Of a stretch of 64,000 bases of DNA, positions 1 through 38,985 are shown one piece after another. Under the pieces are notes generated by a model, which worked only from the letters and a program-made list of their open reading frames with translations, had not been told where the DNA came from and made no database searches. The position numbers and the translations under genes are program-made. Positions within the stretch are counted from its first letter, which is position 1; each line of letters starts with the position of its first letter. Source of the DNA: Limonium bicolor (Eukaryota; Streptophyta; Magnoliopsida; Caryophyllales; Plumbaginaceae); NCBI GenBank assembly GCA_023374045.1, contig CM041777.1, positions 460,751,827-460,815,826 on the forward strand, written 5' to 3'.

Positions 1-1555
1 GTGTCTTAGTATCAAGAATTCTAACAGGAGTCTCGACATATCTCATAGTTAGCTCAATGGATAGTCGCTCGGGCTCAAGGACATGAGAAGGATCGGCAAT
101 GTACTTCTTGAGTTGTGACACATGAAAGACATCATGGACACGCCCCAAGTCCTCAGGTAAAGCTAATATGTAGGCTCTAGATTCAACTCTCTCAGTGATA
201 GTGTACGGCCCTACAAATTTTGGGATCAGCTTGCCCTTCTGGCCAAAACGGAATACGCCCTTCATAGGTGATACGCGCAAGAACACTTGGTCGCCCACGA
301 CGAACTCAAGGTCGCATCGTCGCACATCCGTATAGGATTTCTGTCTATCTTGGGCTGCTTTCATGTTAGCTTGAATTTGTTGAACTTCCGCTTGGACTTG
401 TTCAAGATACTCCGGTCCTATGATGACCGCTTCACTCGACTCATCCCAATACAAGGGGGTACGACAAGGTCTACCGTATAGAGCTTGGAAAGGCAACATC
501 TTAATCGAAGCATGATAGCTATTATTGTATGAAAACTCGATAAGATGAAGCTTATCTATCCAACTCCCCTGAAAGTCTAAGGCACATGCTCTAAGCATGT
601 CCTCCATTGTTTGGATGGTCCTTCCTGTCTGACCGTCGGTCTATGGATGGAAGGCGGCACTCAACTTCAATTCTGTACCTAGCGCTTCCCGTGTAGCTCT
701 CCAGTATCTCGAAAGAAATCTGGTGTCACGGTCAGATACTATAGTCTTCGGGACTCCGTGGTGTCTGATAATCTCCTTGTCGAACAACTCCGCGAGCTTC
801 GCCACCTTCCAGGTGTCCTTCATCGGTATGAATCGAGCAACCTTGGTGAGGCGATCGACTACTACCCAGATCATGTTGAGTCCTCCCCTGGCAGGTGGGA
901 GTCCTACAACAAAATCCATTGAGATATCGTGAAATTTCCACTCCGGAATTGGCATAGATTGTACCATTCCGCCCGGTCTACGATGTTCAAACTTTACCTT
1001 CTGGCACGTAAGGCATCTCAATACATACTCTGTCACATCTGATTTCATTCCAGACCACCAGAAGTACCTCTTCATGTCTTTGTACATCTTGGAGGCTCCT
1101 AGATGGACGGATAGTGTAGAACTGTGTGACTCTCGCAGGATGCGATCCCTCAGCTCAGCATTGCTTCGGGGGACGCATAGCCTGCCATTCAGCCAAATCA
1201 GACCATCTTCATGCAACTTGAAGTCATACTTCTTCTTCTCAAATGTACCATCTGTGATCTTCTGTCTGATCTCGGTCATGTAAGGGTCGCTCAACTGAGC
1301 GTCTCGCACCTCGTCAACCAAGCTAGAAGAAGCGAGTAGTGAATGGAGCGAGTGTGCTCGATGGCTCAGGGTGTCGGCTACAACGTTTGCCTTCCCTTCC
1401 TTATACTGTAGGTCAATGTCGTAATCTGAGAGAAACTCCATCCACCTTCTCTGTTTCAAATTCAATTCCTTTTGTGTGAATACATACTGTAAGCTTTTGT
1501 GGTCGGAGTAGATGGTGATGCTTACCCCATAGATATAGTGTCGCCATATCTTCAA
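1..1555 (-). pseudogene. E1 RNase H end, integrase and integrase C-terminus (decayed pol)
   Basis: The frame 1555-641 opens in the RNase H domain (SDHKSLQYVFTQ; ADTLSHR near residue 60). It continues with an integrase zinc-binding region (CLTCQKVKFEH) and the catalytic core, with Asp in SMDFVVGLPP and in SDRDTRF. It stops at TAG 641-643 inside the usual FHPxTDGQT motif, where the family normally has Gln. A CAG-to-TAG change would explain the stop. Past it the frame continues to position 1 with recognisable text (SYNNSYHASIKM, LYGRPCR, VFHVSQLKKYI), which is the GPY/F-type integrase C-terminus. A chromodomain would be expected just outside the window. Confidence 0.88.
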
Positions 1556-1570
1556 GGCGAAGACAATGGC

Positions 1571-2590
1571 TCATAACTCTAAATCGTGTGTCGGGTAATT
1601 CTCCTCATGCTTTTTCAGCTGGCGGGAGGCGTAGGCTACAACCTTGCCATGCTGCATGAGTACGCATCTCATTCCCTTGCCTGATGCATCACAATATACC
1701 TCAAATCCCTCTGTGCCTTCTAGAAGAGTAAGGATGGGCGCTGAGGCCAATGAGTCTTTTAGGCTCTGGAAGGATACCTCGCACTCGTCTATCCACACAA
1801 ACGGTGCATCTTTCTTCATCAACGTAGTCATGGGCTTAGCGACTTTCAAGAAGTTCTTTACAAAACTCCGGTAATAACCGGCTAGACTAAGAAAGCTCCG
1901 AATGTCGGTAACAGTCTTAGGTCTAGGCCATGATCGTATAACTTCAATCTTAGATGGATCAACTGAAATACCCGCGCTCGAGATGACATGACCGAGGAAT
2001 GATACCTGATCTAGCCAGAACTCACATTTAGAGAACTTCGCATAAAGCTGGTTCTCGCGCAGTGTCTCAAGTACTTTTCTCAAATGAATTTCATGCTCTT
2101 CTGCTGATTTAGAGTATACGAGGATGTTGTCGATGAAGACTACAACAGAAGTGTCTAACTGATCACTGAATAATCGATTCATTAAATCCATGAACTTAGC
2201 TGGTGCGTTTGACAAACCGAATGGCATGATTGTGAATTTGTAGTGGCCATATCGGGTACGGAATGTCGTTTTCTCTATATCTTGCTCTCTGATAGCAATC
2301 TGATGATACCGAGATCGAAGGTCAATCTTGGAGAAGACTGAAGCTCCTTTCAGCTGGTCGAATAGGTCATCGATGCGTGGCAATGGGTATTTATTCTTGA
2401 CGGTGACCACATTCAATTCGTGGTAGTGAATACAAAGTCGGAGGCTACCGTCCTTCTTTTTCACGAAGAGGACCGGTGCTCCCCAGGGTGATACGCTCGG
2501 GCGTATGAACCCTTTGTCGAGTAAATCGTTCAACTGCTCCTTGAGCTCTGTCATTTCCGCTGGTGCCATACGGTACGGTGCCCTAGCAAT
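1571..2590 (-). pseudogene. E1 reverse transcriptase (decayed pol)
   Basis: The frame 2569-1571 is a near-complete Ty3/gypsy reverse transcriptase. Visible motifs are [58 protein letters not shown] and [11 protein letters not shown]. It passes into the start of RNase H ([12 protein letters not shown]). The catalytic box reads F-I-D-N where active enzymes have F-I-D-D, so the second metal-binding Asp is lost. The frame ends at TGA 1571-1573, within the RNase H motif that normally continues [13 protein letters not shown], and the sequence after the stop stays in phase. A frameshift near 2570-2600 separates it from the upstream protease/linker frame. Confidence 0.92.
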
Positions 2591-3273
2591 GGGACCAGTT
2601 CAGGTACAAGATCGATTTCAAGCTCTACTGCTCTCTGAGGTGGCATACCAGGTAGCTCCTTCAGGAATACATCAGGGAATTTGGATACAATCGGTACATT
2701 GGTATTAAACTCTGGATCTCTCTCCAGGTCTTGTGCATAACAAAGATACACATCGTTGCCCTTTCTGAGCTCCCGGTACATAGCCATATATAGCGGAGAT
2801 GACTATAGTCGAAGGCTCTCTCGGTCTCTGGCGGTAAGATACAGTTACCCCAGAAGGACTCTTGAGCAGTAATCTATGCTCGACGCAGAGGATTTGCCCC
2901 TTGTGCCGCTCCAACCAGTTCATTCCGACTATTACATCGAATCCCAATCCATTAAATTCGATGAAGGAGATGGGAACTCTTCACCCTCGATTCGGATCGT
3001 GGCTAATTTGTAATACTTGGTACATCGCACCAAGAAGTTCGGTAGCTCATCCGCATCTAGCCCCAACCTCTTCGCGAATGATGGTGATACAAAGGTGTGA
3101 GAGACGCCGGAGTCGAATAATACTAAGGCTTCAATGCCGTTCACTGGGAAGGTTCCCGTTAAGATGGTGCTGCTTTTACCGGCTTGTGCTTCGGTGAGGA
3201 TACTCAGGTTACCTTCGGTACCGAGTCCACAACCTATTGGATTCACAAGTTTATGAGTAATGATGGTGGACAC
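2551..3273 (-). pseudogene. E1 aspartic protease and protease-RT linker (frameshifted)
   Basis: Three overlapping frames make one protein segment. 3273-2932 holds the retropepsin active site (VLFDSG, Asp codon near 3112-3114) and SPSFAKRLGL. 2947-2705 holds the downstream protease text (VIVGMNWLERHKGQILC). 2787-2551 holds the linker before RT (KFPDVFLKELPGMPP). Frame changes near 2940, between 2705 and 2790, and near 2580 show that the segment is dead. About 30 residues of normal gag-pol text precede the protease (EAQAGKSSTILTGTF). Immediately upstream lies the AlkB cargo instead of the zinc-knuckle tail. Confidence 0.85.
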
Positions 3274-3301
3274 AAGTGAAATTTAATAATCAACACTGCT
3301 C

Positions 3302-3307
3302 TTTATT
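3302..3307 (-). promoter_or_regulatory. AATAAA hexamer downstream of the AlkB frame
   Basis: On the minus strand AATAAA lies about 70 nt after the AlkB stop codon (3377-3379), in an AT-rich 100-bp stretch before the protease frame. It is the canonical plant near-upstream poly(A) element. It could be a relic of the captured transcript's 3' UTR or chance in AT-rich DNA. Confidence 0.3.
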
Positions 3308-3376
3308 GATAAATCAACCATCATACATACAGTGTCTCTAATACACGTTACTAATATATTACATGATACTACACAT

Positions 3377-4135
3377 TTAATACTTTCTAAAGGTAAGGTT
3401 CAGGCGTCTTGGTTTCATGTGTATGACATTGATTATTGCCGGCGGTGCCGTATTCAACTTGATCATTTTGATCCTGTGATACAACATCCTTGAGTTTCCA
3501 CCCATGATTAGGACATCTCCTGATCTCAATACCAGTTTCTCTGCGAGGTCCACACGCTTCTGCTCGCTATACAAGAATACGGCGTCATCACCAATGGACC
3601 AAGACACTACGGGTACTCCTTGTTCAAGAGATTCCGTTGTCTCGTCCTTGTCTTGGTGTAACCCAAGTCGTCCTTCTTTCTCATAGAAGTTGACGATACA
3701 AAGGTCCGCTTCGAGTGCGGGGATCGGATCATCTTCACATTGTTGTGCAAGTTCTACAGCTTGTGTAACAAGCATCTAAAATTCAGGGGGTATTGTTGGT
3801 GGCGTCGCTCCGTCTTGTGTGCACATCTTTTGGTATGTCTTGGTATAAGGATTCCAATCCTTTCCCAAGCACATCATCTCCAGCTTCATCTTCGCTCCAC
3901 CAGGGAATTCGGGTGTATAAAATCCTCCTGGACCCGTCCCTAGTTCATTGCATCGTCGGATGAACGAAATTTGTGTTTCGGGTGTCAGGTATCCCTTTAA
4001 TAAAATCATACCTGGTCGGATGACCTGACACTGCTCGTTGGAGTAGTAGTGAGTGGTGATGTCATCGTCTTCATGGTTTGGGTTTGAAGGTATCGGATAA
4101 CAGATATTAAATCTACCTATGGTTATAAATTTCAT
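3377..4135 (-). CDS. AlkB/ALKBH1-like Fe(II)/2-oxoglutarate dioxygenase frame carried between gag and pol, split by one amber codon
   Basis: Two directly abutting frames in the same phase (4135-3776, 119 codons; 3775-3377, 132 codons) are separated only by TAG 3776-3778, followed at once by ATG. The first half has the start of the AlkB fold (RPGMILLKGYL, GTGPGGFYTPEF, MMCLGKDWNPYT). The second half has the catalytic core: NFY, then H40-Q-D42 (the HxD motif), FLYSEQKR, SGDVLIMGG, H100, and R124/R130 (RLNLTFR). That is the full iron (H, D, H) and 2-oxoglutarate (N, Y, R, R) set of AlkB enzymes, which demethylate alkylated nucleic acid bases. The text is closest to the plant ALKBH1-like subfamily as I remember it. 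The N-terminal extension typical of host copies is missing and no intron is visible, which suits capture from mRNA. It has the same orientation as the element and sits between the zinc knuckles (about 4460-4560) and the protease (3273). Activity is unknown: without readthrough only the C-terminal half, holding the catalytic core, would be made. Confidence 0.88.
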
Positions 4136-4209
4136 CTACGGTGAGTTCTAGTCTCACTAATTCATTTCATGCTCAACACATACTTCAATTTATTTACTCA
4201 TGCATCCAT

Positions 4210-5750
4210 TCAAACAATTACTTCAATACTTAGACATGCTTCACAAGGATTCAAGGTTAAGTTAGTACCTAGGCCGGACTTAGAACCGGTCCCGCCACGA
4301 TCGATGATATGCAAGGCGGGCTGCCTCTGAGGTGCGCCCTTCTGAGGACCTCGGGACCCCTGTCTCTGCGAGGCCTGCTGGGTTGGTGCATCGCCAGATG
4401 CAACCTTCTTGCCTTCCCTCTGCTTATAGCTCTGGAAGTTTCCTTTGGGCTTTGCATTTTTTGGGCACACATTAGCTCGGTGTCCCGGTTTCTGACAGTT
4501 GTAGCATCTGATTTCTCTCCCTTGGCAATCCATGCTGGGATGGTCCTGATTACACCTTCTGCAACGTAGCTGCGGCCGTCGGAGTAGTTTTTGTTGTGCC
4601 CGGAGCCAGAACCTGAGGCTTGAGTGTTAGCACATTTGGTGCGAGAATACTAATTATGGTAATTATACATGTACGAGTGTGAATTTAGAAGTTTTACCCT
4701 TAGGCGGGTGTGATCTCAGTGGCTTCGCAGCCACCGGCGCAGAATAACCTAGCTGAAGAGGCTCAGCTGCTTTGCCCTTCTCAGCATGGGCACTGCTCTC
4801 ACTCGGGGTGATCTTTTGGGATTGCTGGAAGAACTTTGCCTCCTTCTTTTTCCAGGTCTTGCCCTGGTTCTGCTCCTCTGAACTAGTGTTTTTGCTATTG
4901 GCCTTGCGCTTAAGCGCCTGCTCCTCATCTCTCAACTGACATGTAATTTCAACGTGAGATGCCGCGTGATAGCACTCTTGGAGTTTCAGGTATTAGATGG
5001 TGCTCTTACTCATAAAGATTAAGGTTTAAGCATTTTCAATGGTACTTAGGGTTCAAACCGAAGTTTACTTGAAGAGAGGTAAATCTAGTGTAGCCCATAC
5101 CGTACCGAAGGCGATGGCTCAGACCGCCATAGAAGCGATCGACCAACACCTGGCCGGGGTACCCAAGGTCGGGTGGGAGACGTAGAATGAAGGTGAAGGT
5201 GCGGTAGTACTCATCTACTGACATCTTTTCAATCATCCTCAGAGCGTCAAGCTCTAGTCGTTTCTTGGTTTTGACGTGCTCTGGATAGTATTTGGATCGG
5301 AGGATGGCGGTGAAGGATTCCCAGTCGAATGTGGGGTCGTTGGCATACTCGTGTTTTACTAGCTTCCACCAATCCATGGCAGCGTCTTTGAGGTAGTATG
5401 CTGCTACTCTCACTCGAACTCCAGCAGGATCTTCGAGGGTTTCAAAGGCCGTCTCCATTTCGGAGATGTAGGCTTCAAGCTTTGCTAGGTCACTCTCGTC
5501 TCGAAAGCACGGAGGTCGGAGTTCAACGACAGATTTCACCCAATTGACATCTCTGGGTGGAAGGGGGAGGGATTGGTCCCGCTTGAGTTTGTTGATTTTG
5601 TTGGGTTTGTTGTACTGCAGTGATTACTTGAGGTAGCATTTGTGCTACCGTGGTCGCGACGATCTCTGCTATCGTCTGCGCGCCCGGTCCATCGGCAGCC
5701 CCTCCTCTGGGTCGGCCTGGACCTCGTCCTGACATCTGAACATTTAACAT
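4210..5750 (-). pseudogene. E1 gag (capsid plus two CCHC zinc knuckles), frameshifted
   Basis: Frame 5750-5523 is the N-terminus (MSGRGPGRPRGG, then a Gln-rich stretch). Frame 5539-5036 is the retrotransposon gag/capsid domain (AAYYLKDAAMDWWKLVKHEY, KYYPEHVKTKKRLEL, VDEYYRTF). Frame 4935-4663 is the charged linker (LKRKANSKNTSSEEQNQ). Frame 4533-4210 carries the last zinc knuckle, CYNCQKPGHRANVC. An upstream knuckle (C-R-R-C-N-Q-D-H-P-S-M-D-C, about 4520-4560) is readable just before it in the same phase. Frameshifts near 5540 and stop-rich segments at about 4940-5060 and 4590-4680 break the protein. The tail after the knuckles reads GGTGSKSGLGTNLT, then leaves coding sense just before the AlkB cargo. 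Confidence 0.85.
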
Positions 5751-5955: not shown

Positions 5956-5967
5956 GCTCTGATACTA
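5956..5967 (-). other. Primer binding site of E1 (initiator tRNA-Met, one mismatch)
   Basis: The minus strand reads TAGTATCAGAGC, five bases after the LTR end. The consensus complement to the 3' end of plant initiator tRNA-Met is TGGTATCAGAGC, so there is one G-to-A change. The 5-nt spacing matches the LARD at 42940-42956. Confidence 0.85.
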
Positions 5968-7646
5968 CTTTTTGTAACACCCCTACCGCTAATCTCTTAC
6001 TTACCGTCTAATTGTCCCGTTCATCCTACTACTCGCATCGGAAATACTAATACTACGGCGGGTGGTACAACGCCGCTAATCGCCCATACGACTAGCAAGG
6101 CTTACACTACATACAGTCACGGTCTGAAGTCCAGAGAATACCGAGCTACTAACATTATTTACCAAATACAAAATACCATTTACTTACATTGTTGGACTAC
6201 CGAGTATCAAAAGCATAGTTAATTACATCATTTCTCAAGTTTACCAAAAATAATGAGTTTCAACAACTACTCATCAATACCAATTCATAATTCCCACAAT
6301 ATCCAAAAGGGTGCACCCCATGGTACACCGGCTAAACAAAAAGGCCTATAGCCATGTACAACTTGGTACACCTTTCATAGTCCACTAAGTACACAAAAAT
6401 AGATCATCTCGATCTCATCATAATCTTCACCCTTCACGAGCACCTGTAAAATTAAAAACAGTGCCTCAAGGGGTTAAGCAAAACGCTGCATATAAACTTC
6501 GCATATACCACGTGCTAACTAGGGTACGCCGACTAATTTGGTCGACTATACATGAAGTTCATTTTATACATGCATACATGCTATTACATACAACAATACA
6601 TTCATGCAAAATACAATACATACAATTGAAGGCAATACACAAGCCAAACAGTAATACAATACCATTCACAAGTCTTACTTCAATCTTGGTTAGCCAAATT
6701 ACCCATCCGGGTTAATCGGATGTACTCTTTTACTCGGTACACATTACTTACACAATCATACCCATACATTACTTACTTACTTTTCCATACTTACTTAATT
6801 ACTCTTACTTACTTACTTATACTCATGTTAAGTCGGTATGACCTCCGGGCAGGGACTACACTGTCCCACCACCGGGCTTTAGGGTGGCTCACTAATCCAG
6901 GATGCTACCCATTTAAGGGGTTTGGGCCATGGAAAAGATTAAAGCCAGGATTCGGATCCAACCTCTTGTGTCTCCTCCTCCTCACGCGTGGCCGAAACTA
7001 TATCGGACTTCTAATCATTCCAATTTACCAATTTCTTATGTTAGATTGGTTAGCTTATTAGGAATCAGTTAGAAGTCCTGTACTACATTACTTAGCCACA
7101 CAGTACACAACAAGCCACACACACTTCATTATCATCCATACATTTCATGAATTATACAAACTATAGTTTAAGATAATATTCAACAAGGAACAATATCATA
7201 TAAGCACAAGTAAGCGCAATAAATCCGATTTGGGTGTTTTATCTTGTTTAGGTGATCAATTAGCACACAAACACACAAATCAGAGTAGCCAAGGTAGCAT
7301 ACAGGGCATGTGAAGTTCATACCGTTCACCGTTGACCTTGAACTCACCGACTCCCTTCGGTGTTCGACTATTCGAATCCTATCACATACATAGAGTTGGG
7401 TGGCTAATTATCTATAATTAACCTTACTCATTACTTTCCTAATGTTTCCCGGTTTATACTTACTAACTCATTGTTACTCAAATACATTTACTTAAGTCAC
7501 TTACTTAAAATTATTTTCTAAGCTTGTTTATAGCCTTAATGACCTTTAAACATCATTAATCAAGTCTTAATTACCTTATACCATCATTACCCATCAAGCC
7601 TCTACCTTAAAATGACATTAAAATAGTTTTGTGAAGAAAATGGGGT

Positions 7647-7887
7647 GGTCCGGGTTTACAAACCCGGACCAATATGTTTGGTCAGTCTCGGGTATGATTT
7701 AGGGGTGGTCCGGGTTTATGTCCTACTTTACAAACCCGGACCACAACTTCTAAAATCTCTCGGGTGTGAAAATGGGGTGGTTCGGGTTTGTGTCCTAGTT
7801 TATAAACCCGGACCATCCGTTCTGCACTACATTCTGCCGTGATTTTTCCCTGGTCCGGGTTTCTGTACTTGTTTACAAACCCGGACC
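7647..7887. repeat. Array of four GGTCCGGG hairpins in the E1 LTR
   Basis: Units lie at 7647-7670, 7707-7742, 7779-7814 and 7852-7887, starting 60, 72 and 73 bp apart. Each is GGTCCGGGTTT, a short loop, then AAACCCGGACC. The first is a 24-bp palindrome with a 2-base centre, and the others have 14-base loops. Unit 3 has one T in the left arm (GGTTCGGG), a G:U wobble if transcribed. Confidence 0.9.
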
Positions 7888-9696
7888 AGTTGCAGTAATG
7901 GTTAATTTGCTTGTTTTTTATTATGTTTCAACTCCAAACTTCTACCAACTTCTTCCCCAACCATCCTACATATATCCTAGCATGTTTTGACACTAATTAA
8001 GCACTTAAAACTAACCTAATCCATCTCTATACAAATTTGTTACTTAACATATTTCACTGTCAGTTTTTCTCTTCTATTATAGTTTTTTTCTCCTTCAACT
8101 AATGCTACAGATTTTTCCTTTCTTCTTCCCACTAGCTAAATGATTCTCAATCTAGCATAACTTAGTTAAACACCTCACATTACCCCATTTCTAGTTTCAC
8201 TCAACTACACCTCTTCCTCCTAAATACAAACCTAGGTGAAAATCTCATTTTTTTTCTTCTCTGTACACCTCCCTGTTCTTTCCTTTCTAACAGCACTTAA
8301 GTCCCTAAATTCCTAACCAAATTTTGATAGAGTTTCCGTACATTTCTAAGTGTTCTCACCACATTAATTTTGCTCACTCAACACAGTTTACAACCTGCTC
8401 AATATATACATTATTCCCACACAAAATTCTAACACTTACTACACACTTAATACACACACTTAGCATTTTATTTACTTGTTTTCAAAAGCTTCAAACTACC
8501 AATACAGTTAAAATTAATATACTCATTCCCTTCCTACTGTTACAGTGGTTTAACCATTGCTAAAGCAATGCACTTATACATACACAAACATTAAAAACCG
8601 TACAGAGGCACTTCATTACCTTGAGTTCTTGATTCCTCTTTTTCTTTTCTCTCCTTATCCTTTCTTGCTCCTCTTTCCTTCGTTGTTCTTATTTCTTTGT
8701 TTTTTGATTTTTTTTCAAGCCAAGCTACAGCCACGGAAAAAGGCATACACACACACAAAATCTTGTAAAATTTCTAACGTAGGTTTTAAACCCTAACTTG
8801 TGAGAAAACACTTAAAGCTCTTAGGAAGTCTTACCTTGAACTTCTAAATGAAGTTTTGGGTAGAAAAATGACAATGCTTCAGCTCCTCTTTGAAATGCCA
8901 AAACTGGCTGACAAGGAACAATGAGGTCATCGTGGGTTTTTTTTTACAAGGGAAAACTAGAAAAGAGAAGAACTTTGGTCCCTTTCTTACCTTAAAACAT
9001 GAAGACGAAGATGGAGCTTTAAATGCTCATCTTTAGGCTCCAAAAGCAACTACACCCATGGAAATGAAGTTGGAGATTTTCAAGTTTTGAAAGGTGGAAA
9101 ACGATCTCCAAAGCGAGACGAATTCAACAGTATATTTTTTGTAGCATTTGGAGGTGATTTGGGGTTTCAAAGATGAGAAGGAAGAGAGCTGCTGTGAGGC
9201 TCTCTCCAATCGCCATTATTGGAACAAAAGAGGAAGAAGAAGAGTGTATGGGCAGAGAGAAAACGTGAGAGAGGGCTGGTAAGGAGGAGAGAGGTAAGTA
9301 TTTACTTTTTGCTTTATTTCATTTGTCTTTTGTGCATTAGGATAGTTAAAAAGGGAGTGTGGCTACACTAACAAAACGTGCCCCCCTTTTCAAATTAAAG
9401 AACCGGTTGCAATATTACAAAGGAGGATCAAAATTTTGCTTTATTACATTTACACCCCATAACTTCCCAATTTTTGCACTATTCACTTCCGGGACCCGTT
9501 TTTCGGAATTTTCTCGTTTAATTAATTTTATTGGTTCTAGTCCTTCATTAATGTTTAAAAATGACTATTTGGTTGACCAAAATTATTACGAGTCTATTTG
9601 ACCCGCTTAAAGTCGCGTTTTCCCGGTTTCCTCGAAAAACACGCTTTAAGGTTCGTTTGTGTTTTTAATTCATTTTAGGGAAAATTCACGAGATAC

Positions 9697-10070
9697 CCCT
9701 GTTTTCTTTCGTAATTCACAATATACCCCTGTGATTTTCGTAATTTAACTTTAAACATGTTTAAATGTTGTCCAAAATTGATGAAACTTTACATGGACGA
9801 TGCTAAAGTGTTATATTTTGGTCCAATATCAAATTTGAAGTTTTTTAAGCTCACATGTGACCTGTGGGACCCAATGAACAGTCACATATTCATTGGGTCC
9901 CACAAGTCACATGTGAGCTTAAAAAGCTTCAAAATTGATATTGGACCAAAATATAACACTTTAGCATCGTCCATGTAAAGTTTCATCAATTTTGGACAAC
10001 ATTTAAGCATGTTTAAAGTTAAATTACTAAAATCACAGGGGTATATTGTGAATTACGAAAGAAAACAGGG
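9697..10070. mobile_element. Foldback MITE with 182-bp inverted arms inside the E1 LTR
   Basis: Arms 9697-9878 and 9889-10070 are reverse complements with only about five mismatches, around the 10-base loop CAGTCACATA. The outer ends are CCCTGTTTTCTTTCG and CGAAAGAAAACAGGG. The left side extends about 17 bp beyond the inverted repeat. AGGG flanks both sides of the inserted stretch (just before AAAATTCACG on the left; 10067-10070 on the right) and may be a 4-bp target duplication. No transposase is present. The family is uncertain; long arms are typical of Mutator-type or foldback elements. The 73-codon frame across the loop is a by-product of the inverted repeat. Confidence 0.88.
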
Positions 10071-10175
10071 TTCGTTTTCTTCGGGATTTGTTCCCTAATA
10101 TTTATTTAGGCATAGTTAAGCCCTTAAAACCTTCATTAGCCTAATTAATCACTATTTTAATTTCGGGGTATTTCA

Positions 10176-10718
10176 TCTTCTAAAACCTAAGTAGTTAAAC
10201 TCACCCCCAAGCTCGTCATAAGCCCTGATTTATACCATTTCTTTCAGGCTCGTCATAAGCCCTGGGCTTTTGAACATTTTTCTTTCGGGCATGTTAAAGC
10301 ATCGACTTGCATTTGCACGTTAGGTTCTTGACACCTTAGATGCCCGACGTAGTTTATTTAGGTTTCTGACACCTTAGTTGCTTAACATAGTTTATTCAGG
10401 TTCCCGACACCTTAGATGCTTGGAGGAGTTGGTTTGGTGGTGAAAATAAGTCCCCTATCTTTGTGTCAACTCCTTAGGAAGTAACAACTAGTGGGAAGTG
10501 GCAATAATTCCCCTTGGTAAACTAGAATGTATCCCCGCACACTAGTTTTTTTTTTTTTTGGGGGGGGGGTAATGGCAATAAGTCCGCACATTGTCCAACC
10601 AGGAGCATTGGCATGGGTTTTGGTCTCCAGATGCACCAAACATCTTTTGCATATCATCCTCATATCATCTTCATCTACATGTCATTCGCATATCATCCAC
10701 ATTTGCACTCCATTCTTT
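10176..10718. other. Repeat-derived non-coding stretch with poly-T/poly-G run
   Basis: It holds two copies of CTCGTCATAAGCCCTG (near 10213 and 10249) and three diverged units of the following minisatellite (near 10322, 10360 and 10398). A run of about 14 T followed by 10 G lies near 10546-10570, then GTAATGGCAATAAGTCC, which is similar to text at 10500. No gene is seen. It probably belongs to the same old element as the arrays at 10720-11205 and 26103-26345. Confidence 0.6.
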
Positions 10719-10719
10719 A

Positions 10720-11205
10720 CAGGTTCCCGACACCTTAGATGCTCGACGTATTTATCCATTTTTTAGGTTCCCGATTCCTTAGAATGCTCAGTGTATTTCA
10801 TTCACTTTTAGGTTCCCGAGACCTTAGATGCTCGGCGTATTTCATTCACTCTTAGGTTCCCAACAACTTAGACGCTCGGCGTATTTCGTTCACTTTTAGG
10901 TTCCCGACTCCTTTAAATGCTAGGTGCATTTTGTTCACTTTTAGGTTCCCGACACCTTATATGCTCGACATATTTCATTCTCTCTTAGGTTCCCGACCCC
11001 TTAGATGCTCGGTGTATTTCATTCACTCTTAGGTTCCCGAAACCTTAGATGGTCGGCGTATTTCATTCACTTTTAGGTTCCCGACACCGTAGATGCTCGA
11101 CGTATATCATTCACCTTTAGGTTCCTGACACCCAAGATGCTCGGCGTATTTTGTTCAATTTTAGGTTTCCGACACCTTAGATGCTCGGTGTAATCAATTC
11201 ATTCA
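10720..11205. repeat. 44-bp minisatellite, 11 units
   Basis: The unit AGGTTCCCGACACCTTAGAT-GCTCGGCGTATTTCATTCAC-TTTT recurs every 43-45 bp with roughly 10-20 percent divergence. Starts are near 10720, 10763, 10808, 10853, 10897, 10941, 10986, 11030, 11074, 11118 and 11162. Arrays like this are known between pol and the 3' LTR of Tat/Ogre-type gypsy elements, and that is my preferred reading. Confidence 0.88.
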
Positions 11206-15203: not shown

Positions 15204-15720
15204 CTATGGGTACTTCTTCTTCATCTCCCCCTCTACCTCCCACATAGCCTCTTCGGTTCCATGATTAGACCATAGGACTTTGACCATGCGGATGGACTTC
15301 AATCGGGTCTCCCTGGTCTTAGTGTCCATTACTCTAATGGGATACTCCTCATAGGATAGGTTCTGCTCTAGATCCAGGACCTCTGGTTGCAGCACATGCG
15401 AAGGGTCGGGAATGTATCTCTTCAACTGGGACACATGGAACACATTGTGATCTTTCTCCAGCTCACTAGGGAGTGCTGGATGGTACGCCACCTCTCCATC
15501 CTCTCTAAGATCTCATATGGTCCAACGAACTTGGGATTGAGCTTCCCTTTCTTCCCGAACCTGGTTACCCCTATCACAGGAGATACCTTCAAAATACTCT
15601 GTCTCCCACCTCGAACTCAACCGGTCTGCACTTGAGGTCGGCATAGGACTTCTGCCTGTCCTGAGCTGCCTTCATCTAACTCTGAATCACCCGGACTTGC
15701 TCCATAGTCTCCTCTATCAA
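15204..15720 (-). pseudogene. E2 integrase C-terminus and chromodomain
   Basis: Frame 15491-15204 reads HNVFHVSQLKRYIPDPSHVL, then EEYPIRVMDTKTRETRLKS, VKVLWSNHG, EEAMWEVEGEMKKKYP and a stop. This is the chromodomain typical of Del/Tekay chromoviruses, which binds modified histone tails and steers integration to heterochromatin. Between 15491 and 15720 the GPY/F region (VGPYEIL-like text) is readable but frame-broken. Confidence 0.85.
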
Positions 15721-16400
15721 CTGTGGCCCCAAAACAACAGTCTCGCTAATGTCGCTCCAGCACAATGGTGTTCTGCACATTCTCCCATATAGAGCCTCGT
15801 AAGGAGCCATCTTGATGCTGGTGTGATAACTGTTGTTGTACGAAAATTCCACCAAGTGCAGCATATCAGCCATGAACCCTGGAAGTCCATCGCACATGCA
15901 TGAAGCATGTCCTTCAAGGTCTGGATGGTCCTCTCGGCCTGACCATCAGTGGCTAGATGAAATGTAGTACTTAACTTTAGCTTGGTGCCCACCGCCTTTT
16001 GAAATTGCTGCCAGAAATGAGCTAAAAACCTCGAGTCTTTGTTTGAAATGATGGTCTCAGGTACTCCATGATATCTCACCACGTTTCTGATGTAGGCATC
16101 CACTAACTGACTCATAGACCACGTATTCTTCATGGGTATGAACCGTGTAGACTTAGTAAGTCGGTCCACTATCACCCAGATCTGATTGACTCCTCCCTTC
16201 GCTGGTGGTAAACCCATCATGAAATCCATTGAAATGGAGTCCCACTTCACTTCGGGACCTCCAGCAGGTTATCATCTAGTCATCCTCATTCTCTTATGTT
16301 CAAATTTGACCTTCTGACAGGTAAGGCACTTCGACACAAATTATGCCACTTCCCTCTTCATCTTAGGCCACCAAAACTTCTTCTTCAAGTCCTTATACAA
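15676..16400 (-). pseudogene. E2 integrase core
   Basis: Frame 16250-15717 starts at MKWDSISMDFMMGLPPAKGG, with the first catalytic Asp. It runs through VIVDRLTKSTRFIPMKNTW to ISNKDSRF, where the second catalytic Asp of the usual SDxD motif is Asn. It then passes through FHLATDGQAERTIQ, with the catalytic Glu. Frame 15897-15676 continues with FSYNNSYHTSIKMAPYEALYG. The zinc-binding region (CLTCQKVKFEHKR-like) lies near 16270-16400 with a stop codon in between. The frame changes near 15880. Confidence 0.87.
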
Positions 16401-16507
16401 TTTATCACCACCAGGATGAACCGAATAGGGAGTATTATGGGCCTCCCTCATCAGTCTCTCCTTTACCTCTGCACACCCCTGAGGTACACACCATCGGCCT
16501 CTAAATC

Positions 16508-17185
16508 TCAGGCTGCCGTCACTGTGGATCTCGAAGCCCTCTGCTTACCTTCCTTCATCTTTTCTCTAATACGCTCTAACTTTACATCTCCGGGCTGCCC
16601 TTTGAGTATCTCTCCATAGATATCGGAAGAGACACTCATGTGGTACAACCTCACTTCTTGCTCTACGCCTCCAGACTCCATCACCTCCAGGTTCAGTCTC
16701 TGAAAGTCACGAACTAGTTCGTCTAGAAGAACCCACATCGAATTCACAGAATGACTCTTCTTCCTGCTCAGAGCATCGGCCACCAGATTAGACTTCCCTT
16801 CATGATATAAAATCTCCAAGTCATAATCCTTGATCAATTTCAACCATCTCCTCTGCCTCATATTAAGTTCCTTCTGAGTGAAGATGTACTTGAGGCTCTT
16901 GTGGTCAGTGTAGATCTTACAGGAGACACCGTAGAGGTAGTGCCTCCAGATCTTAAGGGCGAAAACCACTACTGCTAGTTCCAAGTCGTGCGTTAGGTAT
17001 CTGGTCTCGTACTCTTTCAACTGCCTCGACGCATAAGCTATGACTTTCCCGTGCTGCATCAAGACACACCCTAACCCATACTGGAAGCGTCGCTGAAAAC
17101 CTCGAATCCATCTGTCCCTGAGGGCAAAGTTAACACTGGGGATGTGGTCAACCTCTCCTTCAACATCTGGAACGCCTTCTCGCAA
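16508..17185 (-). pseudogene. E2 RNase H
   Basis: The recognisable part starts [20 protein letters not shown] (about 17075) and includes [19 protein letters not shown] (catalytic Glu), [17 protein letters not shown] (Asp) and [12 protein letters not shown] (Asp). It ends in the integrase N-terminal linker. The first about 35 residues of the frame are out of register. The true upstream text lies in the RT frame, so one frameshift separates the two near 17075. Confidence 0.87.
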
Positions 17186-18090
17186 TCATCGTCCCACTGA
17201 AATTTGGTTACCTTCTTCATGAGGTTTGTGAGGGGTCTAGCAATCTTCGAGAAATTCTTCACAAATATCCTGTAGTATCCTGCTAGACCCAAGAAACTAT
17301 GAACCTCTGTCAGGTTGCTCGGTCTCGGCCACTCTTTCACTGCTTGGATCTTGGCCGGATCCACTGAGATTCCCTTCTTGGTAACGATGTGGCCTAGAAA
17401 TGCCACTCGATCCAACCAAAAGTCGCACTTAGATATCTTGGCGTAAAGCTGTTGCTCTCTCAAGATCTGTAGGACTGATCTCAGGTGCTCCTCATGCTCT
17501 TCCTTATCCTTGGAGTAGATGAGGATATTGTCAATAAATACCACCACAAAACGGTCTAGATATGGGTTGAAGATCTGGTTCATGAGGTCCATGAATACAG
17601 CCGGCGCATTCGTTAATCCAAAGGGCATCACCAGGAACTCAAAGTGCCCATATCTGGTCCTGAAGGCAGTCTTCGGGATGTCCTTCTCTGCAACACGAAG
17701 CTGGTGGTATCCCGACCTCAGGTCTATCTTGGAAAAGACTCCTGCACCCTGAAGCTGATCGAAGAGGTCGTCGATTCTTGGCAAGGGGTACCGGTTCTTC
17801 ACAGTGATCTGGTTCAGATCCCGGTAGTCTATGCACAACCTCATGCTCCCATCCTTCTTCTTTACAAACAAGACAAGAGCGCCCCAAGGTGATACACTCG
17901 GGCGAATGTATCCCTTCTCCAATGATTCCTCCAGTTGGACTTTCAGTTCTTTCAGTTCTGATGGCGCCATGCGGTACGGGGCCTTGGAGATAGGCGCTGC
18001 TCCAGGCACGAGGTCGACGCTGAACTGCACCTCCCTGTCTGGCGGCATGCCAGGAATCTCATCTGGAAAGACGTCAGAGAATTCATTCAC
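17071..18090 (-). pseudogene. E2 reverse transcriptase (long open frame, catalytic Asp lost)
   Basis: The frame is 339 codons: [110 protein letters not shown] and [11 protein letters not shown]. It enters RNase H at [11 protein letters not shown], then shifts frame. It is complete for the RT fingers, palm and thumb. The catalytic box is FIDN instead of FIDD, the same substitution as in E1, so this enzyme should be inactive although its frame is open. Confidence 0.92.
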
Positions 18091-18132
18091 CGCTCGAATC
18101 TCTTCTAATATACTAGACGTTCGGCTCAGGTC

Positions 18133-18600
18133 CTAGACATGGCAAAGGTATGCCTGTTGTCCCTTCCTCACTTGGGAGAGGATCGTCATGGCTGAGACTA
18201 CCTTTACTCTTGGCTTCTTCTCCGCGCTACTGTAGGAGACTCTTTGGCCCGATGGTCCTCTCAGGATGATCTTCTGCTCTCCACAATCGATCTTCCCCTT
18301 ATACTTGCTTAGCCAGTCCATCCCCAGGATGATGTCGAAGTCGGGGAGGATGAACTGGATCAGGTCAGTTACAAATGTTTCCCCCTTTATGTCTACCCCC
18401 ACATCTTTTAATACATGATTGCAAGAGATAACCCACCCTGAGGGTATAGATACTGCTATGGTAGGGGACTCACAAGTTACTAGACCCAGTTCCTTAACAA
18501 AATTCTCAAAAATAACGAGTACGAATCTCTAGTATCAAACAAAACACGAGCAGAAGTACCATTAACAGAAAAGGTACCTGCTAACACCTCTGCTCCGGCC
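18133..18600 (-). pseudogene. E2 aspartic protease (frameshifted)
   Basis: 18600-18500 reads AGTFSVNGTSARVLFDT, the retropepsin active-site strand, and then changes frame. Frame 18402-18133 continues MGVDIKGETFVTDLIQF, DFDIILGMDWLSKYKGKIDC and IILRGPSGQRVSYSS, the second half of the protease. It lies about 280 bp after the zinc knuckles, the normal spacing, in contrast with E1 where AlkB intervenes. Confidence 0.85.
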
Positions 18601-19758
18601 TCAGCCTCGGCCCGGATCATAACGTTGATCCTCCCTGAGCCTGATTGTTGCCCCGGTTCTCCCCTTGACCTCGGTTGCCTCCATTTCCACCCCCGCCGCT
18701 ACCACGTTGGGGAGCATCCCCGCTGGTTCTGGTGTTGATCTCTGCCTCGAGGCTGGGAGTCTGCTGGTCTGTAGGCCCGATCTCCGCCATCCCCCCTCTG
18801 CTGAGCGCCTCCCTGAGGGCTCTGGAAGCACTCAAAAGCTCTGTGGCCCTTCCTGCCACACCGAAAGCACGCCACCAGGTTTCCTTCACAGTCTTTCCTC
18901 GGGTGGTCCTTGTGGCATCTCCTGCAGTGGAAGTGCCTGTCTCGCCCAGTCTCTCCCCTCTGAACCTGACCCTGGGGTCTATCATTCCTCCTCTGGTCAT
19001 TCCTCTAGCTCCCGTCGAACCTCCTCCGGTCATCGGAGTTATGCCTCCACCTCTTCTCCTGGTTGGGCCTCTGATGTCAGTCGTCATGAATCCGGGACTC
19101 CTCCATGTCCTCCGTCTTCCTCTTCTGACCCACCTGGACCTCCCTCCTCTTCTGCTGCACCCTAAACAGATTAGCAGCCTTTCCATAAGCATTCTGAAGG
19201 GTAGGTATCGTCAGCACGCTCAAAGCCTCCTGGAGGCTCCAGTTGAGTCCTCCTACAAACTTCTGCACCTTTGATGCTTCATCCGGGACCATCGTCGGTG
19301 CGAACCTCGCCAGCTCGAGAAACTTGGAGTGATACTCCTTCACGCTCCGGGTCTGCTGCTTGAGTTCAGAGAACTCTAGATATTTCTGCATTCGGACATG
19401 CTCGGGGTAGAACCCCCGTTCGCCTCCTTCAATGCTTCCCATCCGAAATTGGGACCCGCCAGAAGAGCGTCCTTGTTGGCAGACCACTAGATGTCAGCCT
19501 TGCTCTTAAAGTAATAAACTGCAGCATTCACTCGCCGGTCAGCAGGGCAATTGACCGCCTCGAAGATTTTGTCGAACTCTCGCAACAATCTTCCAGTAAT
19601 ACTGGGTCTTCCTCCCCCTTGAATGCAGTCAGTTTCAGATGGGCGATCCTTTTCGTGTAATCCTCTGGCACATTGTCTCACTGGGCTTGGCATTGCACAA
19701 TTTGGCCCAGGTTCAAGGCTAGCTCCTGGAGTTGTCTCATTGGGTCATTGGCTGCCAT
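18601..19758 (-). pseudogene. E2 gag (capsid and zinc knuckles), frameshifted
   Basis: The start is probably ATG at 19758 (MAANDPMRQLQELALNLGQ), followed by an early stop. 19693-19487 and 19487-19077 contain capsid text: ERGFYPEHVRMQKYLEFSEL, VKEYHSKFLELARFAP, VQKFVGGLNWSLQEAL. Near 18830-18920 two knuckles are readable: C-x2-C-x3-H-x4-C (CRRCHKDHPRKDC) and CFRCGRKGHRAFEC. A Gly/Arg/Gln-rich tail follows. Frame 19192-18617 on the same strand is mostly an out-of-register shadow. Confidence 0.82.
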
Positions 19759-22900: not shown

Positions 22901-23972
22901 AAAGCTAATTCTCCTTCTTTGTGCTTTAAGCACCTTTCCTTGTATCCTAGCTTAATTAATAAGTCTAGATGTATTGTTTAGTGCCTAATTCCGCATTTGG
23001 GTATTGATTTAGAAGTTAGCAAGTGCATTGCCCAACTTGGCCGATTTCAGTCGAGAAAGAGAAGAGGAGAATTTTGGAAAAGAAAAGAGGAACTTATGAG
23101 CTTAAGGTACGATAATCTACCTTAATGTATGTCCTTGATGCTTTTCGAGGTTGGGATGGGTAATTAAAAGAATGAACCAAAACTTAGTTGAAATTTGTTT
23201 GGTAGTTATAAGAGAGAATTGTGGTTATGACTAGTGTGATGGTAAGATTGTTGTGTGATTTAAGGGCTTTGGAGCCAAGTCATTTATGTTTATGCATTGT
23301 ATTGCGATTGATGGAATTTTGGATGAACCTTGTGTGCTAGTAGAATCCACTAGGGATATGGCTAGTTGGAATTGATTTAGATGGATGAAATGATGCATTT
23401 GGGAATGTTAGAATTGTAGGTGAACTATGGCAAATTTTGGTAGAAATAAATTAGTTTAGGTGCTGTTATGAACTTGAGGAACCTATGTTTGATTAGGAGA
23501 AAGTGGAGTGTAAATGAGTGAATTAAACTCACCAAGCTAGAGTATAAGAAGTGAGGAGATTTGTGCAAAAATCTGTAGCAAAATTTATGCAAGAGTGTCC
23601 TAGATTACCTTGAGAGGAACTAGTGTGTAAGACCTTGGAAATAAGGCTTGAACTTAAGTAAATGGAACTGAATATGCCTAGGAATATTTGGAATGGTCAA
23701 ACTGGTTGAGGGAAAGTTGTAAACTACCATGCGAAAGTTTGGAAATGCACTAATGTGCATGAGGTGCAGAAAATGAGAAAAATAAGAGTGCAAAATTTGT
23801 AGAATTAAACAAGAATTGAGTGATAAGGTTGAGCAATGATTTCAAGAGGTTTGATGAGTGTTTAAGGTGTTATAACATGTTTGGAAACATGTGGAAAGAT
23901 TAGGAAAAGATTGGGTAAGAATTGAGGTTGAAACAGAGTTCAAAAACTGCCAAATGTAACAGACCCAGACTT

Positions 23973-24153
23973 GGTCCGGGTTTGCAAACAAGTACGCAAA
24001 CCCGGACCACCCCTTAACCTAGGCAGATTGTTTGTCGCTGGTGTTGGTCCGGGTTTACAAACCGGTACACAAACCTGGACCAACTTCAAAACATGGCAGA
24101 AAGTGATCGACTGGATTGGTCCGGGTTTACAGACCAGGACACAAACCCGGACC
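23973..24153. repeat. Array of three GGTCCGGG hairpins in the solo LTR
   Basis: Units lie at 23973-24008, 24046-24081 and 24118-24153, at 73 and 72 bp spacing. Each is 36 bp, with GGTCCGGGTTT and AAACC(C/T)GGACC arms. Confidence 0.9.
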
Positions 24154-26102
24154 AACACAAAAATGTCCCAAAATGTTGAAAAATGGAATTTAATGGTGGG
24201 GAATTGAATGGTAATGCTATTATAAGATAAATAAGACTTGTTTGGTGACATGTAAAGGTCATTAGGATGATTGAACAAGTGTGAGATTGAATGTGTAAGT
24301 GAGAACTTAAGAACACATGAGTGAAGTTAAGAGTAACAGGACAACGGGGTTAAATACGGGCGCAATAGTCATTTAAATATCATATTACCATAATGTTAAT
24401 AGAAACACTCGAAATGTTATCAGAGATTTGAGAAATATCTGAGGAGCGTAAGATGACATGCAAGAAAGGTTCCATGGTGAACGGTATGGTTTTCTTGCAA
24501 CTTGTGTCCTACCGAGTTCACTCGACTTGTGTGCTATATGTTTGTGTGTCGACCTAACAAGATAAAAGCACAAAAATGTTTATTGCATTTGATATGTATA
24601 TCTTGATGCATGCTGTGTGTACTAACCATCATTACTTGAGTGCGTGGTCTAACCAAATGTTGTAGACCGACTTGTAAATGCTGAACGATTGATTAGTGAC
24701 TCGTAGAAAGAGTCGAACCACGAAATAACTTAGTGTGGAGAACACATGTGAAATCTCAACTAGAGAACATCGATAATTAAAACTTATGAACTCACTTGAA
24801 TGTGAAAGAGATACGGGACTAAGAAACTCCCTTCCATGGTTAGTCGAGAACAACGATAATACAAACTTATGAACTCACTAGAATGTGAGAGAGTTGTATG
24901 GGACTATAGAACTCCCTTATAAATATTGGTCGACCTCCTATACGAGGATCCGACTTGGTATGAGAAAATGACCCGAATGTATAAGTATTCGAAATGTTGG
25001 GGCAACCCTTAAATTTGAGAATACAAGAATTTGAGAAAATTCCCTAAGTTATTAGAAGACATCGAGAGTGATGCTTCTAGACAATATACATAAATATGTT
25101 ATGACTCCAATGAGAGGAGTGATTGGGAATATGAGAAGTCCGAGAGAGAGTCGGACATATTTGAATGAAAGAGGAACTAAGAGTGTAGTTCCGGTTGCTA
25201 GTTGAAGCTTCCCACCATGCTAGACTCGGTGTAGGGTCGAAGCCGGGGAAGTAAGACTAGAACTTGAAAGCTCGGTGGTGAGTCTTGTGAATGTCTCTGC
25301 CCGGAGGTCATGTGTATTGACTTAAGAATTATTCGAGAGAGGAATAATTGAGAAAGTAAGATTGAGACCTGTAGTGTCTATAGAATCTAAGAGAACAAGT
25401 AAAGTATCCGAAGAGAATGGATAAGACATTGAACAATGAGAATGAGGCGTTAGTGAGGTAAAAACCCTCAAGGCCTAAGAAGTAAGATTGTGCAAACTAA
25501 CAAATTGATGTGTTAGTTGTGATTGTATTCCTTATTTGAATACTTGTGAATGCAAGCATGTTGTATGTTTATTGCACTTCATGTTTTGATTTAAATAAAA
25601 TCAACCGCATGTTAAGATGAGAATTAGTTGAGTGTGGCCCGGTAGTAGCGGGTTGCACAACTACCATACCAGCAAAGGTGCTAAGCCCCTTTGGGGCCAC
25701 CCATTCTATTTCAGGTACAATGAAGATGATCACCGTTCGAGAGTAGGACGAGGATTGCGGTTAAGCTTGGGTAGCTGATTTAGATGCATTTGTAATTATT
25801 TGTATTGTAAGACCGAAATTGTTATCGGTAATGGATTGTAGTAGACTCGGTGTGATATTGATTTGATGATTTATAAGACTCAGTTAGATTTTGAAAGAGA
25901 ATGTTAGTGTATTTGTTTAAGTGCTCGGGTATTCCGGTCCATCAGACCGTTACTGTATTTGAGTTAGACCTTGTTAGCCACGTGGGTGGCTAACGACATT
26001 GTTTCACCCACCGTAGTATTGGAAATGTCCGTTGCGATTGTAATGATGATCGAGGCGATTATGTATTAATGACGAGATTAGCGGTAGGGGTGTTACACGA
26101 TG

Positions 26103-34365: not shown

Positions 34366-36006
34366 CTAGTTACGAACGGGGATACTCTGCTCATTTCGAA
34401 AGAAATTGTCAGGATCAACCTTAGTCTTCACTCTGACCAACCGATCAAAATTACCCAAAAAATACTTGTCCCCATAAACCTTCCCTTGTTCATAACCACT
34501 ACTACTAGCATGACCATCAGTAACCCCTATATCAATATCCCTGTAATTTAAGAACGCCCCTCTGGGCGACTTAGACACATAGGGTTCCATAAACTTATAA
34601 AGCTCCCGTATCAACCCAAGATTCCGTACATCCTCTTCCTCCCCGGCCTCATGCCAATTCTCAGAATACTGTATCTTAAACAAATTACCCGCTCTATGCG
34701 GAAACGGTGTCGCATCCCATGGTATTTTACTCATCACACCACCGTAGGCGTTAAACACCATCCCAGTCTTCCCTAACTCAATCAGCTTCTTCCATAGCAG
34801 ATTCAACCCGTCTCTGGTGATTGGAGTGACGACGTAATCTGATTTCCGTTTTAAGTAGTTTGAGTTGTACGTCCGGTTAAGTAACATCGTTAACGGTGTT
34901 ACTTTATAGTTATCAGAATCTTCCCAGTAGAGTACTGACTTAATCCAACTCATCTCAAAACAATCACTTTTCTTCACTCCTAGTTCCGGGAAAACCGTGT
35001 TCATAACATTAACTGGTTCGCGTCTCCAAGGAAAAGGGATATGAAAGTGACTCTACATGAGCTGCTTCTTTTTACGAGTCGTTGCTGCTGCAGCTGCACT
35101 GTTTTTTAACAGTGACGGGTTGGAGAAGTAGTCCTCATGAAGATTAGTTAATCAACTTCTTTCATAACTGATTGCCATTTATACACCAACTCCGTCGTCA
35201 AATTGTCGTCGTCTTTCACAACCTCTCGATTCGGAAAACAGTTACTGTTTTCGGACTTGTACAAGATTAACTGTATAGGAAGTATAACACCAAACTACTA
35301 CCACCCCCACCACCTCTAATCGCCCAGAACAAATCCTCACCCATGGATTTTCGATTAAGTATTCGACCATTAACATCCACTATCTCCGCATCAAAATGAT
35401 GGTCAACTGATCCGTATTTTCTAATCATATTACCATACCCACCACCGGTGAAATGTTCCACCAACACCAACAGTAGGACAGACCCAGCTGGGAAACCATG
35501 GGTAGGACTTTTTTGTGCGATAGCGAAGTAGATTCACCAGAGTTGCACCGGATTGAATATAAGCGTATTAGATGAGATATTGATATTGATGGTACGGAGA
35601 TTTGAGAGGTCAAGGAGGATGAAAATTTGGATTATGGTAGAATGTATGATAGACCGTCGAAATCATGACCACCGGAACGGATTTTGATTAGAGTGTTGTT
35701 GTGTGCACGAGCGCAGATAACGGTGGCGGTAGATGAGATGGAGTGAGTGGTTTTAATGATGAGAGATGGTTTTGGTGTTGATAGAGAAGTGAAACGGAGG
35801 TTACGATGTAGGAAGTTAAGACGGTGGTGTAAGGTTGAGTTGGTTGATTTTGTGAAGAGGATGATTTTACCGGCGGTGTGGGTGTGTGGAGTTAAGGCAT
35901 TGGTAAAGTAGTGTTAGAGAGTTGAGTCGGAGGCGGAGGTGGAAGATGAGAGGATGAGGAATGTTAGTAGGAGAAAGAGGGGATGATATGATTTGGGACG
36001 GGTCAT
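34366..36006 (-). pseudogene. Berberine bridge enzyme-like (FAD-linked oxidoreductase) pseudogene, single exon
   Basis: A start at 36006 gives MTRPKSYHPLFLLLTFLILS, a secretion signal, and then a stop codon about 30 codons in. The following text is the BBE-like FAD domain. IKIRSGGHDFDGLSY contains the His that carries covalent FAD in this family. VEHFTGGGYGNMIRKYG and MGEDLFWAIRGGGGG are at 35470-35267. Decayed middle text (TTELVYKWQSV, FISLFLGDA) covers 35266-35005. An intact 212-codon C-terminal domain (35004-34366) has MSWIKSVLYW, TPFPHRAGNLFKIQYSENW, GAFLNYRDIDIG, YGDKYFLGNFDRLVRVKTK and VDPDNFFRNEQSIP. Intact members are secreted oxidases of about 520-540 residues acting on alkaloids, monolignols or oligosaccharides. 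At least four frame lesions and missing stretches in the substrate domain make this copy dead. No intron is visible, as in many family members. Confidence 0.92.
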
Positions 36007-38972: not shown

Positions 38973-38985
38973 TAATATATAATAA
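38973..38985 (+). promoter_or_regulatory. Likely LTR TATA box
   Basis: TAATATATAATAA is followed about 20-30 bp later by the start of a pyrimidine-rich leader. It is repeated at 48657-48669 in the other LTR. Confidence 0.5.

Follow-up and report, generated by a model that had tools for sequence, protein, structure and literature searches.

A captured ALKBH1-type demethylase gene, probably acting on its own carrier, between gag and pol of Ty3/gypsy retrotransposons in Limonium bicolor

A stretch of 64,000 nucleotides from Limonium bicolor (contig CM041777.1 of assembly GCA_023374045.1; hereafter the window, whose positions are used throughout) carries on its minus strand a Ty3/gypsy long terminal repeat (LTR) retrotransposon with an AlkB reading frame lodged between gag and pol. 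Taking the evidence together, we consider it likely that the frame derives from a captured ALKBH1-type gene, that it has become a third gene of the element, located in a GT-AG segment and held under selection, and that its product is a demethylase which probably acts on the element itself. The host genome, of 2.92 Gb, is assembled in 2,686 contigs, with C1 to C8 of chromosome size (136-540 Mb), and the window starts at C2:460751827. The coordinates of all features are given in Table 1.

The first-pass annotation of the window had described an AlkB frame on the same strand as the element, located between the gag zinc knuckle and the protease and equipped with the Fe(II)- and 2-oxoglutarate-binding residues; the frame is real, and so is the residue set. 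It adjoins a zinc-knuckle frame on the gag side (4533-4210) and a protease frame on the pol side (3273-2932), and the interval first assigned to it, 3217-4275, nearly coincides with the conserved GT-AG segment at 3234-4268. The contrast drawn earlier with E2, a related element in the window, also holds: E2 runs from knuckle to protease without AlkB. In the window copy the frame is continuous except for a single in-frame TAG (3778-3776), which splits it; this copy's own AlkB is broken. PF13532 (2OG-FeII_Oxy_2 in Pfam) matches the C-terminal half with an E-value of 1.2e-31 and the N-terminal half with 9e-5 (23.2 bits, below the curated cut-off of 31.2); in the unbroken copy L018 the match extends across the whole domain (E 3e-44). 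The motifs NxY, HxD...H and RxxxxxR are all present within the domain, and the cofactor residues are, in L018 numbering, N149, Y151, H160, D162, H220, R244 and R250 (motif roles as in PMC9289625). A chance open frame is rejected on the domain match (E 1e-31) and on the homologues found.

Further copies were sought with the C-terminal half of AlkB as the query, and the copies of the first family, family A (L003-L028), were picked by their similarity to that half. From 41,029 first-look candidates, 150 matches, counting the window copy, were scored, with protein identities of 90-100%; an open frame of no less than 241 aa is present in 95, and the frame is exactly 252 aa long in 54. A search with the protease returned 150 copies, 11 of which were common to 148 of the AlkB matches (the other two, on small contigs, were excluded), so that a naive capture-recapture estimate (148 x 150 / 11), which assumes independent samples, gives roughly 2,000 copies. 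Eight copies spread down the list of the 150 best-scoring proteases form the only set picked without AlkB; all eight carry AlkB at the same place, with frames of 248-252 aa in five. Thus, other copies with the order gag-AlkB-pol are numerous, no relative lacking AlkB was found among the eight chosen by protease, and a one-off insertion is rejected on both the 150 scored matches and the 8/8 protease-chosen copies. A scan of viral contigs for AlkB gave just two 29-residue matches at 53% (L031-L032), which were not used.

The ratio of nonsynonymous to synonymous substitutions (dN/dS) was calculated among copies. For AlkB in 22 family-A copies it is 0.209 (dN 0.042, dS 0.203), as against 1.05 and 1.56 for the other two sense frames of the same copies. 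Codons 2-119, the half not used for choosing copies, give 0.235 (0.14-0.36 over 100 resamplings), and the half used for choosing them 0.164; in the eight protease-chosen copies AlkB gives 0.168 and the other sense frames 0.99 and 1.43. The antisense frames of the 22 copies give 1.02, 0.28 and 1.83, the 0.28 belonging to the frame that shares the codon phase of AlkB, a control result that we count against selection on AlkB. In the same family-A set (19-24 copies) the values are 0.18 for the protease, 0.105 for the reverse transcriptase (RT) and 0.30 for RNase H-integrase; AlkB is therefore constrained about as tightly as the protease. Neutral evolution of AlkB among copies was not found (0.16-0.24 versus 0.99-1.56 for other sense frames), and, by this measure, natural selection kept the AlkB sequence while the elements multiplied.

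A second family, family B, was selected for its resemblance to the A. thaliana homologue P0146, which gave 93 matches; 20 were fetched, all of which align as a single family by protein motif, and no close family-A copy was among them. Of these, 17 match family-A AlkB DNA at 65-68% over parts and three show no DNA match. The AlkB proteins of the two families are 57-59% alike and their RTs 80-81%, while either RT is 71-77% like that of E2. Copy L053 has gag with CCHC, AlkB, protease and RT in the order seen in family A; L054 has a gag frame, AlkB, protease and RT in order, the CCHC pattern being unmatched in the frames listed. The dN/dS of AlkB in 16 family-B copies, of which one has an in-frame stop, is 0.170, as against 1.44 and 1.56 for the other sense frames.

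The segment that holds AlkB is bounded by conserved sites. In family A the 5' site, AG/GTA at the end of gag, is present in all 22 copies that include this part (24 were examined; L008 could not be aligned and L011 is truncated), and the 3' site, AATAG/G ahead of the protease, in 24/24; among the protease-chosen copies the counts are 7/8 (no match in L055) and 8/8. The segment measures 1,033-1,037 nt in six copies, and its ends have a GC content of 30-35%, the flanks 51-67% and AlkB itself 45-47%. When the two sites are joined, Gag and protease form one open frame in the window copy, L022, L021 and L016, four of the six copies checked. In family B, the sites are GTAAG (17/18 rows) and CCCAG (16/19 rows), in phase 1 by alignment reading, and L033 has lost 1 nt right after the 3' site. 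Conserved GT-AG sites and an in-frame join, both features of Ogre-type introns, are thus found here, by script in family A and by alignment reading in family B. From these sequences we infer splicing: removal of the AlkB-holding segment would fuse Gag to Pol in frame.

In searches of the PDB by sequence, the element AlkB matched rice ALKBH1 at 1.3e-68, E. coli AlkB at 1.5e-20 and human ALKBH1 at 5.6e-11, and ALKBH5 was not found at E<=1. An AlphaFold model of a relative, P0002 (pLDDT, the predicted local confidence, 85.8), gave TM scores, by target length, of 0.89-0.91 with rice ALKBH1, 0.81-0.89 with E. coli AlkB and 0.58-0.61 with ALKBH5 (17% identity); with human and mouse ALKBH1 they were only 0.41-0.51, although the E-values there were better than that of ALKBH5. 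By sequence and modelled fold, then, the element AlkB is closest to plant ALKBH1, not to ALKBH5/9/10, and, as judged from the model, E. coli AlkB resembles both plant ALKBH1 and the element protein more closely than animal ALKBH1 does. The rice enzyme works on N6-methyladenine (6mA) in single-stranded DNA and R-loops (PMC10469495, in the part consulted). On plant LTR-element RNA, N6-methyladenosine (m6A) causes retention in stress granules, from which ALKBH9B frees ONSEN RNA, according to a review (PMC12786077, in the part consulted). Given these two precedents, the element AlkB could serve RNA, nascent cDNA or host molecules; most probably it demethylates the RNA or single-stranded cDNA of the element itself.

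The first-pass annotation had also proposed that the element captured an ALKBH1-like mRNA, which gains support from the host gene. This gene, on C3, was located by two weak exon matches (E 0.32 each; one was fetched), and its domain is interrupted by two introns, after YISVPEQV and after GRLGLHQ, whereas the element frame is continuous through both positions; the captured copy would hence have come from spliced RNA. The element AlkB is 49-51% identical to the C3 gene. Trees of 53, 42 and 43 proteins were built, the C3 gene being included only in the last. In all three, the element AlkBs together with P0001, P0002, P0003 and P0005 separate from all sampled plant genes with 100/100 support, and in the 43-protein tree this clade is set apart from the C3 gene as well; recent descent from that gene is rejected by this tree. 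P0001 and P0003 cluster with family A in each tree; P0002 goes weakly with family B (84/76) in the 43-protein tree and is unresolved in the 42-protein tree. The deep divergence of the element clade suggests that the capture is old.

P0002 and a pol protein, P0172, are each assigned to a contig 26,561 bases long, most likely the same one. Over 1,094 residues P0172 shows 75% identity with L022 pol, and with E2 it shows 57-68% in separate pieces; AlkB combined with such a pol is probably present in another data set too. Residues 203-597 of P0172 are 90.6% identical to L053 pol and the neighbouring parts 68-81%, an unevenness that may reflect recombination between families. P0121 scored like an element-type protein but contains two copies of the domain. 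Annotation tends to drop transposon open reading frames (ORFs), so the lack of element-type AlkB in named plant proteomes, among the best 120 matches listed in each of two lists, says little.

We propose the following course of events. A Ty3/gypsy lineage, probably of chromoviruses, would long ago have captured the mRNA of a plant ALKBH1-type demethylase and kept it permanently as a third gene between gag and pol. RNA that retains the segment would hold Gag and the AlkB frame, and splicing it out would produce the in-frame Gag-Pol fusion. Selection over rounds of retrotransposition would keep the enzyme intact, and the enzyme would demethylate the element's own RNA or single-stranded cDNA, either escaping host control based on m6A or 6mA or repairing an alkylated template. 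Several observations weigh against this account. Frames shorter than 241 aa occur in 55 of the 150 AlkB matches, as expected of decaying copies, and the remaining three of the eight protease-chosen copies have AlkB frames of just 127, 165 and 208 aa. In L018 and L025, the other two of the six copies joined above, the gag frame is closed upstream of the 5' site. The start codon of AlkB is ACG or ATA in three of the eight protease-chosen copies, and in the family-B frames seen the conserved start lacks an ATG. At L022, the one copy checked for LTRs, no target-site duplication was found. Finally, the activity for which plant ALKBH1 is known concerns 6mA in single-stranded DNA rather than m6A in RNA (PMC10469495, in the part consulted).

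How AlkB would be expressed may be hinted at by the bases directly ahead of it. There, TAG is invariant in the aligned family-A copies, AG is found in 18/18 family-B rows (TAG in 16), and this, along with the lack of an ATG in the family-B frames seen and the fact that one frame class per family would be in frame with gag and the other not, hints at one 5' site at the gag end used with two alternative 3' sites. Unspliced RNA would then give Gag alone and the two spliced forms Gag-AlkB and Gag-Pol, with Gag-AlkB incorporated into the particle as a resident demethylase, which would clear methyl groups from RNA and nascent cDNA in the course of reverse transcription; we put this forward as a tentative and rather doubtful elaboration. 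In both families frames of ~259 aa would be in frame with gag and those of 252 aa would not. The two classes differ, again in both families, by one A in a short A run at the AlkB start (GAA/GAAA; L013 and L015 versus L018 and L022 in family A, L034 and L041 versus L043 and L046 in family B), as if one slip had occurred twice or had been inherited.

A selected enzyme could instead act on the host, altering the methylation of host RNA, or of DNA at 6mA near the element, and so weakening silencing. Rice ALKBH1 indeed strips R-loops of 6mA and reduces either H3K27me3 or the H3K27me3/H3K4me3 ratio (PMC10469495, in the part consulted), and the authors who described AlkB-bearing elements in Phalaenopsis orchids allow cellular RNA as a target of their enzyme (PMC9289625); even so, we hold action on the host to be unlikely, if well within reason. 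That AlkB is an N-terminal extension of Pol, made by frameshifting at the 3' end of AlkB, is very improbable: the pol frame does open ~20 nt ahead of the AlkB stop in 9/16 listed copies, but the spacer between AlkB and protease, read in the pol frame, has a dN/dS of 0.91 (19-24 copies), on which such a fusion is rejected, has a GC content of only 30-35%, and, in the window copy, is interrupted in frame by a TAA (3285-3283). Passive cargo, that is, an mRNA picked up by chance by one element and copied along unused, would fit the TAG in the window copy and the many reports of host-gene capture by plant LTR elements (PMC7264820, in the part consulted), but is strongly disfavoured by the codon-specific constraint in two diverged families, dN/dS rejecting a neutral passenger in both, and by the retention of the cofactor residues (in family A, six of the seven in 22/22 copies and R250 in 21/22; in family B, the six counted in 15-16/16), so that we give it scarcely any credence.

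The statement in the first-pass annotation that no AlkB cargo was established in Ty3/gypsy elements is outdated: a 2022 paper described Phalaenopsis Gypsy elements whose m6A demethylase is active in vitro (PMC9289625). In that study a screen of 121 plant genomes found an AlkB domain in LTR elements of just two Phalaenopsis species, and among the open-access papers listed in our literature searches we found this one report and a review citing it (PMC12786077, consulted in part). The Ogre/Tat element Gypsy_Pa_2799 (PMC9289625) likewise is a Ty3/gypsy element with an added AlkB (PF13532), amplified and with the cofactor residues present. However, the Phalaenopsis elements are of the Tat/Ogre lineage, 25 kb long, with an ALKBH5-type enzyme active in vitro, and are called recent (PMC9289625), whereas the present element is a probable chromovirus of ~14 kb (one copy), with an ALKBH1-type enzyme, in two diverged families, and is known here from sequence. 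In Phalaenopsis AlkB forms a separate ORF2 beside a single gag-pol ORF (PMC9289625), whereas here it lies between gag and pol in the GT-AG segment. Membership in the orchid lineage is rejected, since the AlkB is not of ALKBH5 type by sequence or fold and the ORF2 arrangement is absent; this is an independent capture, different in AlkB subfamily, gypsy lineage and position, and probably also in age.

In plant RNA viruses AlkB is a domain of the replicase. These viruses (Alpha-, Betaflexi- and Closteroviridae; cited in PMC9289625) resemble the present retrotransposon as replicating RNA elements with an AlkB of their own, but are an unrelated type of element. In Ogre, which has an intron between ORFs, and in BARE1, a facultative intron decides which parts of the polyprotein are made, as would be the case here; splicing takes place between polyprotein parts in Ogre and within gag in BARE1, and the consulted parts of these reports name no enzyme gene inside the introns (PMC6317226, PMC3735527), whereas the present segment holds AlkB. 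Plant ALKBH1C/D genes and rice ALKBH1 (5xeg/5xoi) are of the same subfamily by sequence and fold; these are, however, cellular genes, which have a longer N-terminal part and, in the host copy examined, introns, whereas the element copies are intronless and ~250 aa long.

The element reads, on the minus strand, 5' LTR, primer site, gag, AlkB, protease, RT, RNase H and integrase, up to the window start. LTRs, a tRNA primer site, gag and the order protease-RT-RNase H-integrase identify it as Ty3/gypsy; a chromodomain (PF00385) at the integrase end is matched weakly (E 0.0013; 19.1 bits, below the cut-off of 25.1), and the element probably belongs to the chromovirus branch, presumably to Tekay. 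The 5' LTR has its 3' end, GGGGTGTTACA, at 5973, and its outer end was extrapolated by 8 bases; the primer site is of a type that we take to be complementary to the initiator-Met tRNA. No match to a 3' LTR of the window copy was found in the DNA searched, more than 5 kb beyond the window start, and the 10-kb loci taken first contain no LTR pair. In L022, the sole copy measured, LTRs of ~3.87 kb with TG...CA ends enclose an internal region of 6.5 kb, for an element of ~14 kb. Its LTRs differ by a Kimura two-parameter distance of 0.0138, which points to young activity; at substitution rates of 0.7-1.3e-8 the insertion would be recent, of 0.5-1 million years.

Table 1. Features of the AlkB-bearing element and of E2 in the window.
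Feature	Position	Strand	Remarks
Integrase	4..1092	(-)	element continues beyond window start
Reverse transcriptase and RNase H start	1492..2569	(-)	
Aspartic protease region (RVP_2), pol start	2682..3230	(-)	frame broken in window copy
Putative GT-AG intron holding AlkB, 1,035 nt	3234..4268	(-)	5' site CTAG/GTACT (4269/4268), 3' site CAATAG/GTTGT (3234/3233), both phase 1
ALKBH1-type AlkB (2OG-Fe(II) dioxygenase) frame, 252 codons	3380..4135	(-)	stop 3379-3377
TAG immediately ahead of AlkB, possible proximal 3' splice site	4136..4138	(-)	TAGA invariant in 30/30 aligned family-A copies
gag 3' part with CCHC zinc knuckle	4210..4533	(-)	stop falls within putative intron
gag capsid region (PF03732)	5036..5750	(-)	frames 5750-5523 and 5539-5036
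Primer binding site TAGTATCAGAGC	5956..5967	(-)	differs by one base from TGGTATCAGAGC at the equivalent place of copy L022
5' LTR, diverged	5973..10183	(-)	matched in pieces 7447-5973, 9681-9512, 10175-10067
E2, degenerate related gypsy element without AlkB	15717-19487		gag and pol join directly

Inside the 5' LTR lies an inverted repeat (9697-10070; arms of 182 nt, 97% complementary, 10 nt gap) that looks like a foldback or miniature inverted-repeat transposable element insertion. Tandem units of ~72 bp with a palindrome-like GGTCCGGGTTTRTAAACCCGGACC occur at 7643-7888 and 23971-24163; arrays of this unit length recur within the LTR portion of many family-A copies, and two more, built on a different core, lie at 40527-40783 and 50226-50481. 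The stretches 38609-42473 and 48293-52178, ~9.7 kb apart, contain pieces 73-76% like the family-A LTR as well as shared 27-bp and 72-bp tandem arrays, and probably represent the two LTRs of a related element. Elsewhere, the window has a tandem array of a 44-bp unit (~10.7 copies, 10721-11192) and a 212-aa frame (34366-35004), which we take to resemble the C-terminal part of a berberine-bridge-enzyme-like oxidase.

The L. bicolor elements represent a second independent plant gypsy lineage with an AlkB demethylase, which here belongs to a different subfamily and is differently placed within the element. Such convergent capture suggests that retrotransposons and plants do contend over methyl marks on nucleic acids, and the ALKBH1 type makes DNA, as single-stranded cDNA or in R-loops, a possible target alongside m6A RNA. 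Since one genome offers many intact frames, the substrate, packaging and splicing proposed here would be directly testable.

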